Positions 1-56,810 of a stretch of 56,810 nt of DNA are shown piece after piece. Made by a program: the position numbers and the translations under genes. Below the pieces are notes generated by a model, which did no database searches, was not told where the DNA came from, and saw nothing but the letters and a program-made list of their open reading frames with translations. How positions within the stretch are numbered: position 1 is the stretch's first letter; every line of letters starts with the position of its first letter. The stretch is from contig CAILUG010000002.1 in the NCBI GenBank assembly GCA_903837345.1, positions 1 to 56,810 of the forward strand, written 5' to 3'. The stretch comes from an uncultured Gammaproteobacteria bacterium. GTDB lineage: Bacteria > Pseudomonadota > Gammaproteobacteria > Pseudomonadales > Pseudohongiellaceae.

Positions 1-28
1 TCTGGAAAGTTTTGCACGCTGATTAACA
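1..28. mobile_element. Terminus of an IS21-family-like element, cut by the window edge
   Basis: Read on the minus strand from position 28 outward, the sequence starts TGTTAATCAGCG and continues with CAAAACTTTCC. It nearly matches the element end at the right edge of the window (from 56673, TGTCAATCAGCG then CAAAACTTTCC), which is next to an IstB C-terminus. IS21-family ends begin with TG and carry repeated end sequences. The junction falls inside the integrase gene, so this is most likely the outer boundary of an inserted copy. Only 28 bases are visible, so the identity rests on the match to the right-hand end. Confidence 0.6.
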
Positions 29-601
29 TAATAGTCGTTTTGCGGTCTCCGTCTTAATATGCCACAAGTTCCCTCGGCTGCCATTCCGATGAGCGGTTTG
101 TTGCATCAAAACGTCAAGGATATGCCGCGTGCCTACATCTGCGACGATCAGTTTTCCGATAAGGGGGAAAGCGTAGGCTTTTAGTGTAGATGCCCACTGC
201 TTCCGGTGTTTCTCGTTGGTATAGTCCGAAGCGTGGGCTGACAGATAGGCGGCTGTACATTCTTGGAAGGTCTTCTGTCTTGAAGCTAATACGATGCTAT
301 CGCTTTTTCGTGCGCGTTTACGTCCTATCAAATTCACGCCGTTCCGCGCATCCGCAGAAAGCTCACGAGCCGCTTCCTTTGCCATTGCCAATGTAACCGT
401 TGGATATGACCCAAGCCCAATGACTTGCCGTTGCCCTGCAACACGAATACGAAGCACCCAAGACCGAGGCGGCGTTGTATTTGCGTGAATTGCTGGCCGT
501 ACTTGAAGCAATAACCCTGCGACACCTCCAACAGCATGCCACCCGGGCTTGATAAGGCGCTTCACCTCAAGGGCTACGAGCTCTTTCGCGATCTTCGGCA
601 T
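23..601 (-). pseudogene. P4-type tyrosine integrase, truncated by IS insertion
   Basis: The protein starts MPKIAKELVALEVKRLIKPG and shows the N-terminal arm-binding domain (DUF4102-like, with the family motif GLGSYPTVTLAMAKEAARE). A core-binding segment follows (KQWASTLKAYAFPLIGKLIV) up to KTETAKRLL. There the sequence runs into the IS21-like end and stops. The whole catalytic domain (R, H-x-x-R and Y residues) is absent from the window. P4-type integrases are normally about 400 residues and only about 190 remain, so this is a broken gene and a relic of an integrated island. An alternative start lies three codons upstream at 610. Neither start has a clear ribosome binding site. Confidence 0.82.
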
Positions 602-731
602 ACCATCCAACTGATCAAAAATATTGAAATTGCATGGTACTTAATGACACGGCGTGGAGCAATTAAAACCAGTAAATCCTTTAATAACAATAATTTACAA
701 TATTCTATCGTGTTGGGTGACACAATGCTTT

Positions 732-761: not shown

Positions 762-2993
762 TCAGTTCTGTTTTGCAGCCACCGATATTTTCTTGCCGGT
801 TTGCAGCTCGCCCAGGTCGATCAGAATCTTGCCACTCTCGACCAGGTACGGGTCTGGTTCCTTCGGTTTGTCTTTGCCATCGGCGCCTTTCTTCGCGGTC
901 GAGGGTGCGCCATCCTTAAGCGCGGGTTTGGTCGCTTCGAAATCAGCAGACTTTTCATCCAGACTGTTACCGTCGGCGTCCTTGTTGCCATCCTTGTCCA
1001 TGGCCTTGACGTCGGCGAACAGCTCAAGCCCCTTGGCTTTGCGGCGCGTGTTTTCCTGTTTCAAACGCCACTCGTCGCGCTGTTTGCGTTCGGCCAGCAG
1101 TTTGGCTTCGTTCAATGGCAGCAGGTTGGTGGCCTGTTCGCGTTTGGCCTCGGCAATTTCGGCACGGATGAACACGAAATCCGGATCATCACGCAGACGT
1201 ACGTCATGCTTTGCGTTGAGTGAAGGCACCAGCAGACGGAAGTCGGCATAGGGACGATAGAAGTTCGCTACATCAATGGTGTCCCAGGGCAGGGCAGTGG
1301 GCAGCGCGTTCTCGCCGATGTCGTCGGACACATCGTACAGATCAGGGAACTTGATATTGGGTGTCACGCCCTTGTGCTGGGTGCTTTCACCGGAAATGCG
1401 ATAGAACTTGGAGCGGGTGATCTTGATCTGGCCTTCGCCCATCGGGATCAGCTCCTGCACGGTGCCTTTGCCAAAGGTCTGGCTACCGACGATCAGGCCG
1501 CGCTGATAGTCCTGGATGGCGCCGGCAAAAATTTCGGAGGCAGAGGCGCTGAGCCTGTTTACCAATACGGCCAGCGGGCCATCGTAGCTGGTATCGGAAT
1601 CAGGATTGCCCAGCACGGTGATTTCACCTTCAGCGTCTTTCACCTGCACAGTCGGTCCGCGCTTCACGAACAGGCCCACCAGTTCGCTGGCCTCGGTAAG
1701 GGAACCACCGCCATTGTTGCGCAGATCGATTACCAGTCCTTCGATATTTTCCTTTTTCAGTTTGGTCAACAACTGGTCCACATCGCGGGTGCTGCTTTTG
1801 TAATCGGGGTCGCGACGCTGCAGGGCTTCAAAATCCACATAGAAAGCCGGCAGTTCGATCACGCCGATCTTGTGCTTGACGCCACCGTATTCGACATCCA
1901 CGACTTCGCTCTTGGCAGAGGAATCTTCCAGTTTGACTTTTTCGCGGGTGATTCTGATTATTTTGGAATCCAGTTTGCTGCCCTTGGGCAGCACATTCAG
2001 GCGTACCACCGAGCCTTTTTCACCGCGCACCAGATCCACCACATCATCAACGCGCCAGCCGACCACATCGACAAAAGCCTTGTCGCCCTGGGCAACGCCA
2101 ACGATGCGGTCGTCAGGATGCAGTTCGCCGTTCTTGTCGGCCGGGCCGCCGGTGACGATGCTGACTACCTTGGTATATTCATCATCAGTGGTGAGCACGG
2201 CACCGATGCCTTCCAGTGACAGGCGCATGCTCATGTTGAAATTCTCGGCCGCGCGCGGTGCGTAATACTGGGTGTGCGGATCGAATGCCATCGTCATCGC
2301 ATCCATATAGCGCTGGTACACATCCAGCGTGTTGATGCGCAGCACCTGGCTCAATTGCGAACGGAAACGCTTGGCCAGCAGTTCACGCACTTCCTTGATC
2401 GGTTTGTCGGTAAGCTTGAGGCTGAGCACCGAGCTCTTTACCTGGCGACGCCAGAGATCTTCCAGTGCTGCATGGTCTGCAGGCCATGCTGCTTTCGAGC
2501 GATCGAGTTCTATGGATTCATCGGCAGTGAAATCGAAATCGGTAGGGTCGGTTTCCACCCGTTTGATCGAATACACCAGCCGTTCGATCAGCCGCTGGTT
2601 GTAGCGGTTGAACATCAGGTAACCGGTCTTCACGTCACCGGCTTTCAGTTGGTCATCCAGCTTGGTGCGATATTGCTCAAATTCGGCGATGTCAGTCTGG
2701 GTGAAATACATGCGGCTGCCATCCAGTGATTTGATATAGCCGTCCAGCATCTTGCCGGAAAAGCTGTCGTTGAACTGGATGTGCGAATAATGGTTACGCA
2801 GCAGCTGATCCATGATGGCCTGGGTGGTTTTGCCATACTCGGGCGCAGGCTGCATTGCATGGTAGACGGCGCTTACATCGAGCGGGATTTCGGCGGGCAG
2901 GATTGAAGCCGGCTGTGCTGCCAACAACCGTGTGCCCAGCAACAAGGAAAACCACAGGCCGGACAAGCGTGCGGTTCTGCCATTCATGAACAT
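762..2993 (-). CDS. prc: Carboxy-terminal processing (tail-specific) protease Prc
   Basis: Periplasmic serine protease of family S41 that degrades or trims proteins from their C-termini; in E. coli it processes PBP3 and the amidase regulator MepS. The 743-residue product has an N-terminal signal sequence (hydrophobic stretch LWFSLLLGTRLLAA, about residues 13-26), the Prc N-terminal domain, a PDZ domain at about 255-345, and the S41 core. The core holds LSASASEIF with the catalytic Ser at about 484, and TFGKGTVQ with the catalytic Lys at about 509; the 25-residue spacing equals that of E. coli S452/K477. A basic, lysine-rich C-terminal region follows. It is somewhat longer than the E. coli protein (682). 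The start at 2993 has GAGG eight bases upstream. It stands alone on the minus strand, downstream of the recombinase gene. Confidence 0.95.
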   Translation of the reverse strand: MFMNGRTARLSGLWFSLLLGTRLLAAQPASILPAEIPLDVSAVYHAMQPAPEYGKTTQAIMDQLLRNHYSHIQFNDSFSGKMLDGYIKSLDGSRMYFTQTDIAEFEQYRTKLDDQLKAGDVKTGYLMFNRYNQRLIERLVYSIKRVETDPTDFDFTADESIELDRSKAAWPADHAALEDLWRRQVKSSVLSLKLTDKPIKEVRELLAKRFRSQLSQVLRINTLDVYQRYMDAMTMAFDPHTQYYAPRAAENFNMSMRLSLEGIGAVLTTDDEYTKVVSIVTGGPADKNGELHPDDRIVGVAQGDKAFVDVVGWRVDDVVDLVRGEKGSVVRLNVLPKGSKLDSKIIRITREKVKLEDSSAKSEVVDVEYGGVKHKIGVIELPAFYVDFEALQRRDPDYKSSTRDVDQLLTKLKKENIEGLVIDLRNNGGGSLTEASELVGLFVKRGPTVQVKDAEGEITVLGNPDSDTSYDGPLAVLVNRLSASASEIFAGAIQDYQRGLIVGSQTFGKGTVQELIPMGEGQIKITRSKFYRISGESTQHKGVTPNIKFPDLYDVSDDIGENALPTALPWDTIDVANFYRPYADFRLLVPSLNAKHDVRLRDDPDFVFIRAEIAEAKREQATNLLPLNEAKLLAERKQRDEWRLKQENTRRKAKGLELFADVKAMDKDGNKDADGNSLDEKSADFEATKPALKDGAPSTAKKGADGKDKPKEPDPYLVESGKILIDLGELQTGKKISVAAKQN

Positions 2994-3099: not shown

Positions 3100-4329
3100 T
3101 CAACTGCTGCGATCAATGATTTTCTTGCGTGCTGATGCATGGCGTTCCTTCAATTCCACATCTATGTAGCGGTCGGTGATTGCGCTCGAGCCGTGACCGG
3201 CATCGTCCCGCACATGTTCCCTGGGCCTGAACTTCACATCTTCGGAAATGCCGGTATGCCGCAGCCAGTGCACCGTGGCCGCACCCAACTGGGTGGCTTC
3301 TTCCTGCATTCCTTCCTGTTCAAGCTTAAAGACCGCTTTATCGAAACAAAGTTGCACGATTGAGCGAATCTGACGCGTACTTGATATGCCGCCATCACCA
3401 CGGGTCTTGTGGACGAGCGGGGTGTTTTCGCCGGGTGAGGGCAGTTGACTGAGATTGCGGGACGCCCGGTAGCGTTTCAGTACCGCCAGCATGCTGTCAC
3501 TGACTGACACAACCCGCTCCTTGTTGCCCTTGCCTACGGTCCGGAACCACCAGTTTCCCTCCAGATCGCGTTCAAAGTCACCCATGCGCGGGGTCCAGCG
3601 CGGCGTTTCCACCAGCTCTGATATACGCAGGTACATGCCAAACAGTGCCTGCATGATGAACAAAGTTCGTTCATGGGTGGCGGGATCAGCTTCCGCCAGG
3701 TCCTTGGCGGTTTCCATCACCACGTTCCATTGCAGCTCCGACAAGCGCCGGATCGGCCGGGCGTGCTGGCTTTTGCGTACCAGTTTGTTCTTTTGGCGGA
3801 TCTGCGCCACCGGGTTGGCATTCAGATATTCCTCCTGAATCAGGAAGTTAAAGAAACTTCCTAAAACAGCCAGCAAGGACTGGATACCGCTTTGCGACAA
3901 GTTGTAAGGGGTGTTTTGCCGGTTCTCGGTGGCCACCACGTAGGGCCGCCAGTCCGGGTTGGGCACGCGCTGGCCCTGGTTCTCGATATAACGCGGCACG
4001 TTTTTGGTGCCTATCCAGGCCTTGGGTGGCTTTTTGGCAAAGTCGACATAATCCTCGATATCCTCGCGCCGTACGTCCTTGAGTGACTTGTCGCTGCACA
4101 ACCAGCACCAGTGCAGGAAATGTTCGATTTCACGCCGGTAAGTGGAAAAGGTATCGGGGCTGCCACGATAGCTGTAAAGGAACTCACTGGCGCACTGGTA
4201 GTCATCAACCGCATGGGCCGGTACTTGTTCCAGTTGCAGGTGATCGACGTTGGCAATGCGATGCCTGAATGGATTCTGCATGGATTCCAGCGTATCGAAA
4301 AACGGAATCGGAGCTTGTCGAGATGACAT
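3100..4329 (-). CDS. Orphan tyrosine recombinase (phage-integrase family)
   Basis: Site-specific recombinase of 409 residues with an N-terminal SAM-like core-binding domain (about 45-185, YQCASEFLYSYRG onward) and a complete catalytic domain. All family residues are visible: Arg in YLRISEL, Lys in VGKGNKERVV, HWLRHTG for H-x-x-R, the second His in GHGSSAITDR, and the Tyr nucleophile in TDRYIDV. It is not XerC or XerD by length (about 300) and is not fused to anything. There are no phage, transposon or conjugation genes beside it. Directly upstream lie a TATAAT box, a 12-bp palindrome and a 34-bp palindromic site with 13-8-13 geometry, which is a plausible recombination or operator site for this enzyme. 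Role unknown; candidates are resolution or inversion at that site, or a domesticated integrase. Confidence 0.88.
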   Translation of the reverse strand: MSSRQAPIPFFDTLESMQNPFRHRIANVDHLQLEQVPAHAVDDYQCASEFLYSYRGSPDTFSTYRREIEHFLHWCWLCSDKSLKDVRREDIEDYVDFAKKPPKAWIGTKNVPRYIENQGQRVPNPDWRPYVVATENRQNTPYNLSQSGIQSLLAVLGSFFNFLIQEEYLNANPVAQIRQKNKLVRKSQHARPIRRLSELQWNVVMETAKDLAEADPATHERTLFIMQALFGMYLRISELVETPRWTPRMGDFERDLEGNWWFRTVGKGNKERVVSVSDSMLAVLKRYRASRNLSQLPSPGENTPLVHKTRGDGGISSTRQIRSIVQLCFDKAVFKLEQEGMQEEATQLGAATVHWLRHTGISEDVKFRPREHVRDDAGHGSSAITDRYIDVELKERHASARKKIIDRSS

Positions 4330-4367
4330 TAAGTATATCCTTTAAATATCTGATAAATAACGGATAA

Positions 4368-4379
4368 AAGTAGCTACTT
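4368..4379. promoter_or_regulatory. 12-bp perfect palindrome in the recombinase leader
   Basis: AAGTAGCTACTT is self-complementary and lies between the candidate -10 box (4395-4400) and the recombinase start (4329). It could be an operator in the leader of the recombinase mRNA. No matching regulator is visible in the window. Confidence 0.4.
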
Positions 4380-4394
4380 AAAGTGAATTCTAGG

Positions 4395-4400
4395 ATTATA
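4395..4400 (-). promoter_or_regulatory. Candidate -10 box for the recombinase gene
   Basis: The minus strand reads TATAAT, a perfect sigma-70 -10 hexamer about 66 bases upstream of the start codon. No good -35 is found at the usual spacing, because that stretch is occupied by the centre of the 34-bp palindrome. Anything bound to the palindrome would therefore overlap RNA polymerase. Confidence 0.45.
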
Positions 4401-4401
4401 C

Positions 4402-4435
4402 ACTATTTCCGGTAATAAAGATTACCGGAAATAGT
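4402..4435. repeat. 34-bp palindrome with loxP-like 13-8-13 geometry
   Basis: The left arm ACTATTTCCGGTAAT (4402-4416) is perfectly inverted at 4421-4435 around the asymmetric centre AAAG. The total is 34 bp, so it can be read as 13-bp arms around an 8-bp asymmetric spacer, the layout of loxP-type sites bound by tyrosine recombinases. It lies between gor and the orphan tyrosine recombinase gene. A terminator for gor is the alternative, but the stem is AT-rich and no T-run follows on the minus strand. An operator is a third possibility because it covers the -35 region. Confidence 0.65.
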
Positions 4436-4478
4436 AAAGGGCAATAAAGCTCAGGTCAACTGGATTCTTCACACGCCC

Positions 4479-5837
4479 CTAACGGCTGCGGGTCCTCAAC
4501 GTCAACAGCTCTTCGGCCATGGTGGGATGAATGCCGATGGTGGCATCAAGTTGGGTTTTGGTGAGCCCGCAAGTCATTGCCACAGCAAAGCCTTGCATGA
4601 TTTCGCCGGCGTGTTCGCCGACCATATGAATCCCGAGCACCCGGTCAGTGCCGGTATCGACGATCACTTTCATATAGGCACGTTCGTCTCGGCCTGAAAG
4701 TGTATGGCGTAAGGGCCGGAACCCTGTCTCAAAGATGGCTATGGCTTGTGCCCTGTCGCGGGCTTCGGCTTCAGTGAAACCCACTGTGGCAATATTGGGG
4801 TGGCCAAACACGGCAGTGGCAATCCTGTGATAATCCAGCGTGTTGGCCGGTTCCTTGCCAAACAGCTGCCTCACGACCAGCATTGCTTCCGCCAAAGCTA
4901 CCGGCGTCAGGGCTTTATGGCCCACCACATCGCCAATGGCGTAAATGGTCGGCTCGGCGGTGCGGAAGCTGGTATCCACTTTGATTTTGCCATGCTGGTC
5001 GAGGCCGACCCTGGTGTTTTCCAGGCCCAGACCTTCCACGTTGGGTGTGCGTCCCAGTGCGGCCAGCACCTGGTCAACTTCGAGCGTGGAATCGTCGATG
5101 AAACTGGCCAACAGCCCGCCTTTGCCGTTGCTGACCAGTGACCGGATCTGTCTGCCCGGCAGCATCTGGCAATGTTTGCCGGCCTCAATCATGAAATGCT
5201 TGCGTACATCCTCATCAAAGCCTCGCAACGGCAGCTCACTGCGCCAGCTGAGCCAGGTCTTGACCCCCAGCCCGGCAAAAATGCCGGCAAATTCGACACC
5301 GATATAGCCAGCGCCGAGAATCAGTATGCGCCCAGGCAAGCTGGGCAAATCAAAGATCTGGTCTGAACTCAACGCCAGTTCACTGCCCTGAAAATGCGGC
5401 CGCTCCGGCCTGCTGCCGGTACAGATCAGGATAAAGCGTGTCTTGTACTGGTGGCCGTTGACTTCCACGGTAACGGAATCGAGCACGCGGGCATGGCCGG
5501 CAAACAGGCTGACTCCGGCTTTCACCAGCAGGTTCTCATAGATGGCATTGAGCCGGCTGATTTCACGGATCTTGTTGTCACGCAAGGTGGGCCAATCGAA
5601 ACTGATCTGCCCCAACTGCCAGCCAAACCCGGCTGCATCAGCAAAGTCAGCACTGTATTGGCTGGCATAGCTGTAGAGCTTCTTGGGCACACAACCCACA
5701 TTGACGCAGGTTCCCCCCAACTGTTTGTTTTCGGCAATAGCCACTCTGGCGCCCAGGGCGGCGGCTGTGCGGGCGGCCCTGACTCCGGCGGAACCGGCTC
5801 CGATCACAAACAGGTCAAATTCAGGAATAACGTGCAT
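4479..5837 (-). CDS. gor: Glutathione-disulfide reductase
   Basis: NADPH-dependent flavoenzyme that reduces oxidised glutathione in the cytoplasm. The 452 residues match the family length (E. coli 450). The N-terminus has the FAD-binding motif VIGAGSAGVRAA (11-22). The redox disulfide sits in GGTCVNVGCVPKKL (Cys44 and Cys49). The NADPH domain has GAGYIGVEFAGIFAG followed by arginines in WRSELPLRGFD, which favours NADPH over NADH. The C-terminal interface has the catalytic His in IGIHPTMAEEL. It is transcribed divergently from the regulator at 5980, with about 140 bp between the starts. It is followed by the 34-bp palindrome. Confidence 0.95.
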   Translation of the reverse strand: MHVIPEFDLFVIGAGSAGVRAARTAAALGARVAIAENKQLGGTCVNVGCVPKKLYSYASQYSADFADAAGFGWQLGQISFDWPTLRDNKIREISRLNAIYENLLVKAGVSLFAGHARVLDSVTVEVNGHQYKTRFILICTGSRPERPHFQGSELALSSDQIFDLPSLPGRILILGAGYIGVEFAGIFAGLGVKTWLSWRSELPLRGFDEDVRKHFMIEAGKHCQMLPGRQIRSLVSNGKGGLLASFIDDSTLEVDQVLAALGRTPNVEGLGLENTRVGLDQHGKIKVDTSFRTAEPTIYAIGDVVGHKALTPVALAEAMLVVRQLFGKEPANTLDYHRIATAVFGHPNIATVGFTEAEARDRAQAIAIFETGFRPLRHTLSGRDERAYMKVIVDTGTDRVLGIHMVGEHAGEIMQGFAVAMTCGLTKTQLDATIGIHPTMAEELLTLRTRSR

Positions 5838-56672: not shown

Positions 56673-56810
56673 TGTCAATCAGCGCCCAAAACTTTCCACC
56701 TGTCAGCGTCCAAAACTTTCCAGTCTAGCGACCTTTCTTGGCACCACTTTTATGGTGTTTGAAGCGGTAAGAGTCATTGCCGGTTTCCAGGATGTCGCAA
56801 TGATGGGTAA
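56673..56810. mobile_element. IS21-family element, terminal part, cut by the window edge
   Basis: Starts with TGTCAATCAGCGCCCAAAAC, followed by a second related end repeat TGTCAGCGTCCAAAACTTTC at 56701. Multiple end repeats of this kind are typical of IS21-family termini. The 3' end of istB follows on the minus strand. The element continues beyond the window. Confidence 0.82.
56725..56810 (-). CDS. istB: IstB-like transposition helper ATPase, C-terminal fragment
   Basis: The last 27 codons before the TAG at 56725 read THHCDILETGNDSYRFKHHK, then SGAKKGR. The HHCDI-ETGNDS-RF pattern is the conserved C-terminus of IstB, the AAA+ helper protein of IS21-family transposition. The frame is open to the window edge, so the gene is partial here, not necessarily broken. 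Confidence 0.88.
   Translation of the reverse strand, partial: THHCDILETGNDSYRFKHHKSGAKKGR

Follow-up and report, generated by a model that had tools for sequence, protein, structure and literature searches.

The 34-bp palindrome at positions 4402–4435 of the window (the whole stretch of 56,810 nt analyzed here) is very probably the recombination site of the tyrosine recombinase encoded next to it. Judged from genome sequences, site and recombinase in all likelihood form a single-recombinase dif/Xer system for chromosome dimer resolution. This interpretation is based on the co-occurrence of gene and site, the usual presence of one site, its position at the replication terminus in closed relatives, a flip of KOPS polarity there in one of them, and the lack of XerD and of a canonical dif. 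The closest described system appears to be XerL/dif of the Legionellales. A preliminary description of this DNA had paired the palindrome with the recombinase, and conserved co-occurrence bears this part out; its labels of an orphan enzyme, a loxP geometry and autoregulation did not stand, as shown below. The features are as follows.

3100–4329, minus strand: XerL-like tyrosine recombinase, 409 aa, with catalytic residues R235, K267, H354, R357, H379 and Y388
4402–4435, no strand assigned: 34-bp perfect palindrome (15-4-15), the outer 3 bp on each side being less conserved
4405–4432, no strand assigned: 28-bp dif-like site, ATTTCCGGTAAT-AAAG-ATTACCGGAAAT, with 12-bp arms and a 4-bp asymmetric centre; it can also be read as 11-6-11
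4479–5837, minus strand: glutathione-reductase-like gene (gor in the preliminary description), upstream neighbour, outside the system
762–2993, minus strand: large open reading frame, downstream neighbour, outside the system

The gene at 4479–5837 is taken to be gor after its earlier name, and the open reading frame at 762–2993 presumably resembles a C-terminal processing protease. The recombinase gene is complete and lies at the distance first reported: bases 4330–4401 (72 nt) separate the site from the ATG at 4329. The absence of phage or transposon neighbours was also reported, which is not entirely accurate as regards phage. A truncated P4-type integrase is present at positions 23–610 (minus strand), near the contig start; it shows matches to Arm-DNA-bind_3 and Phage_int_M only, and a match to the catalytic domain is missing from this remnant.

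The catalytic residues of the recombinase are invariant in 37/37 aligned sequences (the window, 23 from the window's family and 13 from other families of the order). Pfam searches gave Phage_int_SAM_1 above cut-off and Phage_integrase just below it. The NCBIfam models of XerC, XerD, XerS and XerA all give scores far under their cut-offs, with 65.8 and 62.6 bits for XerC and XerD (cut-offs 335.15 and 329.6) and 34.8 bits for XerS (cut-off 267). A PDB sequence search at E ≤ 1 yielded only the XerA-like 4a8e and XerD 1a0p; Cre is absent among these matches.

The palindrome reads ACTATTTCCGGTAAT-AAAG-ATTACCGGAAATAGT, with 15/15 complementary arm positions, as previously noted. About 0.003 perfect 15/4/15 palindromes are expected by uniform chance in a genome of 3.26 Mb. 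At ≤3 mismatches the 34-mer occurs once in the window genome, and so does the exact core (CCGGTAATNNNNATTACCGG), for which the next-best place has 2 mismatches. Core-like places at ≤3 mismatches number 51, vs. 16 for the control, and copies of a single 20-mer account for at least 14 of the 51.

An alignment of 44 sites was made from the window and from those 43 of 80 family loci that carry the exact core; the other 37 loci, some with near-matches, were left out. The arms are complementary in 43–44 of the 44 sites out to 12 bp from the centre, and in 39, 30 and 22 sites at the final three arm positions of the 34-mer. Invariance of the inner core is by construction, because the core served to select the sites. 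The next positions outside the core played no part in the selection, and two of them change in step on both sides. Complementarity drops beyond 12 bp, and therefore 28 bp is a better unit than 34 bp. This favours a conserved unit of about 28 bp, the size of dif, readable as 11-6-11, over the 34-bp (13-8-13) loxP geometry put forward at first. Among the 43 family loci with the exact core, 39 have AAAG as their centre. A second palindrome mentioned in the same description, AAGTAGCTACTT, is indeed present in the leader, and was found in none of 14 relatives examined (chosen from the 43).

The recombinase gene is found in 118/137 genomes of the family and in 90/92 near-complete ones; thus it belongs to the core of this family and is no orphan. 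The main copy is 64%–93% identical. Pseudohongiella, OM182 and SAR86-labelled genomes are represented among the named loci, which come from the best 80 of 121 relatives. An extra, more distant copy (45%–57% identical) is present in seven family genomes (G080, G094–G098 and G134).

The site core at ≤1 mismatch is present in 116/137 family genomes, with a backwards control of the core found in 6/137. Exactly one copy occurs in 93 of the 116. Among near-complete family genomes, 89/92 have the core. Gene and site are both present in 113 of the 137 genomes and both missing from 16, by hand comparison; in drafts, the loss of a single contig may account for part of this joint absence. The site occurs without the gene in three genomes (G062, G063, G114) and the gene without the site in five (G022, G052, G088, G090, G118), all eight being multi-contig drafts.

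Two of the latter, G052 (G052:C9:119384-120289) and G088 (G088:C70), have a recombinase gene that is interrupted by several stops or lies in pieces on one contig, and the site is also missing. Loss of the site with a broken gene is no rule, because other genomes with a damaged gene keep it: G071, G091, G100 and G107 show one stop inside the gene match, and G032, G069, G084 and G128 show pieces or part-matches at other places.

The dif-like site, usually one per chromosome, is at the replication terminus in closed relatives. The terminus position comes from these relatives. The window genome is a 63-contig draft; GC skew in the window is flat and uninformative about the terminus, and only 1 top-strand and 6 bottom-strand KOPS lie to the right of the site. 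One closed relative, G033 (3,345,119 bp), has dnaA at base 208 and the site at 1,677,509. The cumulative GC-skew maximum, from a dense sample of 400 kb, is at 1,673,281, i.e. 4.2 kb from the site, and 20 sampled stretches of this chromosome show positive skew up to the 1.66 Mb stretch and negative skew from 1.825 Mb on. KOPS polarity flips at the site, with 19 top and 0 bottom motifs on the left and 5 top and 32 bottom on the right. The motif used was the E. coli version of KOPS.

The noisy sampled skew of G136 switches sign at about 3.31 Mb, where both the recombinase (3,311,179) and the core site (3,308,195) are found; about 0.22 Mb separate the recombinase and the point opposite dnaA. The noisy sampled skew maximum of G135 is the stretch that holds the site (2,564,381), with about 12 kb between this site and the point opposite dnaA. 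In G134 the gene is about 34 kb from the corresponding point (chromosome length from a record with the same coordinates). Outside the family, terminus position was sampled in G372 of family f6 only, whose site (1,731,693) is flanked by the last sampled stretch with positive skew and the first with negative skew.

The FtsK gamma domain is present over cut-off in 10/10 genomes searched. It is 9–34 kb from the recombinase in all seven of the ten that have both on one contig (G033, G134, G135, G136, G026, G019 and G081).

No family genome has a XerD match over cut-off (0/137), vs. 263/390 genomes of the order. Being below cut-off is by itself a strict test, because it is reached by just 4 of 14 named control genomes; the argument for XerD absence is carried by the low best scores and not by the cut-off alone. 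Absence of XerC rests on cross-detection by the XerD model. The canonical 28-bp dif core at ≤3 mismatches is found in 2/137 family genomes and is absent from the window genome. Three XerD-like genes of 229–239 bits are present in G002, and by eye these look like mobile-type integrases.

The order sample consists of 390 genomes, 17 of them from the window's family. By XerD match, 111 were classed as absent (best E-value weaker than 1e-55 or no match), 16 as intermediate and 263 as present. According to lists transcribed by hand, a recombinase homologue (E ≤ 1e-56) is found in 130 genomes: 100/111 of the XerD-absent, 7/16 of the intermediate and 23/263 of the XerD-present class. The 100 XerD-less genomes with a homologue comprise 70 with a close one (E ≤ 1e-93) and 30 with a more distant one. 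The degenerate site pattern fits essentially none of these 30, so the dimer-resolution interpretation is weaker for them.

This degenerate palindrome, TTCCKRTAWTNNNNAWTAYMGGAA, is present at ≤1 mismatch in 79/390 order genomes, vs. 8/390 for a backwards control. Among genomes outside the family, it is found in 54/69 of those that have a close homologue (E ≤ 1e-93) but in 8/304 of the rest; the pattern was written after reading the loci of 20 of the 69, and with those 20 excluded the count is 37/49. No site is seen in 15/86 order genomes with a close homologue. Other arm versions are TTCCTGTAAT in f6 and TTCCGATAAT in f39, with a near variant in f27. Seven of the 11 XerD-less genomes without a homologue belong to one family, f8, in which G185, G245, G354, G373, G461, G478 and G494 lack a strong match to either XerD or the recombinase. 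Another system may act in f8.

The proposed process is as follows. The 28-bp palindrome would be the dif of the chromosome, and a dimeric chromosome trapped at the division septum would bring two dif sites together. Copies of one recombinase may then bind the identical arms of both sites, and with activation by FtsK, strand exchange at cut positions predicted within the asymmetric centre would convert the dimer into two monomers. In bacteria without the usual pair of enzymes, a single one would thereby split chromosomes joined by accident before the cell divides.

The XerL/dif system of the Legionellales, as described in PMC9765430, has a single recombinase and a dif with perfectly symmetric arms of 10 and 12 bp. 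That dif sits near the GC-skew inflection, and the known XerC and XerD are described as missing (PMC9765430). The resemblances to the present system are a single tyrosine recombinase, with catalytic Y387 and Y389 there and Y388 here; inverted-repeat arms that are long and unbroken, with 12 bp here as against 10 and 12 bp there; and a site near the skew switch in genomes without the known XerC/XerD (PMC9765430). The host, however, belongs to a different order than the Legionellales, and the dif here is often ≤4 kb from the gene, whereas in L. pneumophila the distance is given as >400 kb (PMC9765430).

The best matches of the recombinase in a plasmid collection are replicons of Legionella adelaidensis (55% identity, 93% covered) and L. 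fallonii (47%), whose recombinases may or may not be XerL itself. Homologues with 38%–44% identity are present on large replicons of Pseudoalteromonas (chromids), Pseudomonas (megaplasmids) and Vibrio. These are possibly the resolvases of their replicons. A matching palindrome was not found within 8 kb on each side of the homologue loci on two replicons of Pseudoalteromonas and a plasmid of Pseudomonas nitroreducens.

With XerCD/dif the present system shares a 28-bp site at the terminus, KOPS polarity and FtsK gamma, but it has one recombinase and identical arms, with no XerD over cut-off and almost no canonical dif. XerS/difSL and XerH/difH also have a single recombinase and a site near the gene; those sites, however, are characterized as only partially dyad-symmetric (PMC9765430). 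The recombinase also differs from XerS in its score with that model (34.8 bits against a cut-off of 267). Cre/loxP is similar in its palindromic arms, asymmetric centre and single recombinase; it is unlike the present system, which has a unit nearer 28 than 34 bp and no PDB sequence match to Cre, and is a chromosomal core system.

Other functions of the palindrome were considered. One is that of an autoregulatory operator, in which the palindrome overlaps a promoter and the recombinase, or another repressor, controls recombinase expression. The arrangement in the window, with the site 72 bp upstream of the ATG and a TATAAT just downstream of it, would agree with this, as would the gap of 66–180 nt in 16/43 loci with the core. 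The gap, however, measured within about 4 kb upstream, varies from 66 to 3742 nt over the 43/80 family loci. It is about 0.46–0.47 Mb in G338 and G413 (f16), and in four closed f27 genomes (G200, G231, G258, G417) the site is 108–210 kb from the gene and therefore not tied to its promoter. A TATAAT ≤25 nt downstream of the site was found in 1 of 14 relatives examined (chosen from the 43). In 4250–4600 a single promoter-like match was found where 0.8 would be expected by chance, and within the family the site centre can face either way with respect to the gene. Autoregulation by the site, proposed originally, is thus unsupported and an operator quite improbable as the explanation of the palindrome; a secondary regulatory role of the site in this genus is possible.

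A second alternative is that the palindrome is the attachment site of an integrative element and the recombinase its integrase. The tyrosine recombinase domains, the truncated P4-type integrase 2.5 kb away and the homologues on plasmids and chromids are in keeping with a mobile element. On the other hand, the gene is a core gene of the family whose main copy is conserved at 64%–93% identity, the site is usually single and unduplicated, the distribution of the recombinase is complementary to that of XerD, and closed relatives have the site at the terminus. An attachment site is considered very unlikely.

Still less credence can be given to a loxP/Cre-like site that serves inversion or plasmid-dimer resolution and not chromosome dimers. 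Such a site would have palindromic arms and an asymmetric centre, homologues do occur on large plasmids and chromids, and 23 order genomes hold both XerD and a homologue. But the window genome and most relatives have one site, so that a partner for inversion is lacking, the conserved unit is nearer 28 bp than 34, and the PDB sequence search returned 4a8e and 1a0p, not Cre.

An intrinsic terminator of gor, which the preliminary description had named as a possible refutation of its own interpretation, has a negligible probability: the site is directly downstream of the gor-like gene and could form a hairpin, but neither a hairpin with T-tract nor anything else terminator-like was found in 4250–4600, a T-tract beside the palindrome is missing on either strand, and copies of the sequence in other genomes lie at widely differing distances from the recombinase.

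The arms of the proposed dif are also found in phages. A scan of IMG/VR for the core gave at least 120 viral contigs (L207–L326; e.g. L208:8905-8924). Among the matches listed, 101/120 contigs have the longer TTCC...GGAA arms, often with 14–15 bp identical to the arms of the window; the AAAG centre is seen in 0/120 and the rarer chromosomal centre AATA in 2/120. The 24-mer with an AAAG centre and a scrambled control palindrome each gave 0 viral contigs. The f6 and f39 arm versions are present in four viral contigs each. Against annotated phages the 34-mer gave partial matches only (E-values 1–4).

A homologue of one phage terminase large subunit is present in the contig DNA examined for 80/101 of the contigs among the matches listed; many of these 80 could be nearly identical to one another. 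In all 80 the site is upstream of the terminase, and in 62 it is within 600 nt. The terminase shares 76% identity with that of phage DSL-LC04 and 56%–57% with those of Pelagibacter phages HTVC027P and HTVC023P. The site is missing from the terminase region of the related phage DSL-LC04, and no homologue of the terminase was seen in the DNA examined of the contigs with the f6 and f39 arm versions. No recombinase homologue was found in the phage DNA examined, nor by pattern in the viral contigs.

Use of the host recombinase by the phages is hypothesized. A broader and rather doubtful scenario, which is offered tentatively, is that a XerL-type system displaced XerCD over a large part of the order, and that tailed phages with a terminase related to those of HTVC023P and HTVC027P copy the dif arms of the host with a different centre. 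They might recruit the host recombinase for dimer resolution or packaging, and the mismatch in the centre would forbid recombination with the chromosome.

Large genomes without dif/Xer were listed for the Legionellales, Saccharophagus degradans and Colwellia psychrerythraea by Carnoy and Roten (PMC2731167), and that 2009 survey left dimer resolution in these large-genome proteobacteria open (PMC2731167). XerL gave the answer for the Legionellales in 2022 (PMC9765430). Related literature includes Kono et al. (PMC3025954) and Smyshlyaev et al. (PMC8138268). A further account of this system beyond the Legionellales was not found among the papers listed from the open-access literature searched. 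The present analysis predicts how dimers are resolved in one family and, with less certainty, in several further families of its order. Both site and enzyme are named, and the prediction can be tested in cultured strains. A near-perfectly palindromic dif with one enzyme offers a simple substrate with which to study what directs Xer recombination, and the phage copies suggest a testable interaction of mobile elements with the dif/Xer system.

A minor observation concerns the other end of the window. The sequence GCGGTAAGAGTCATTGCCGG, at window positions 56764–56783, occurs at at least 14 places in the genome, and 8 of the 14 places listed are ≤120 bases from a contig start. Its frequent position at contig starts suggests a repeated element that broke the assembly.
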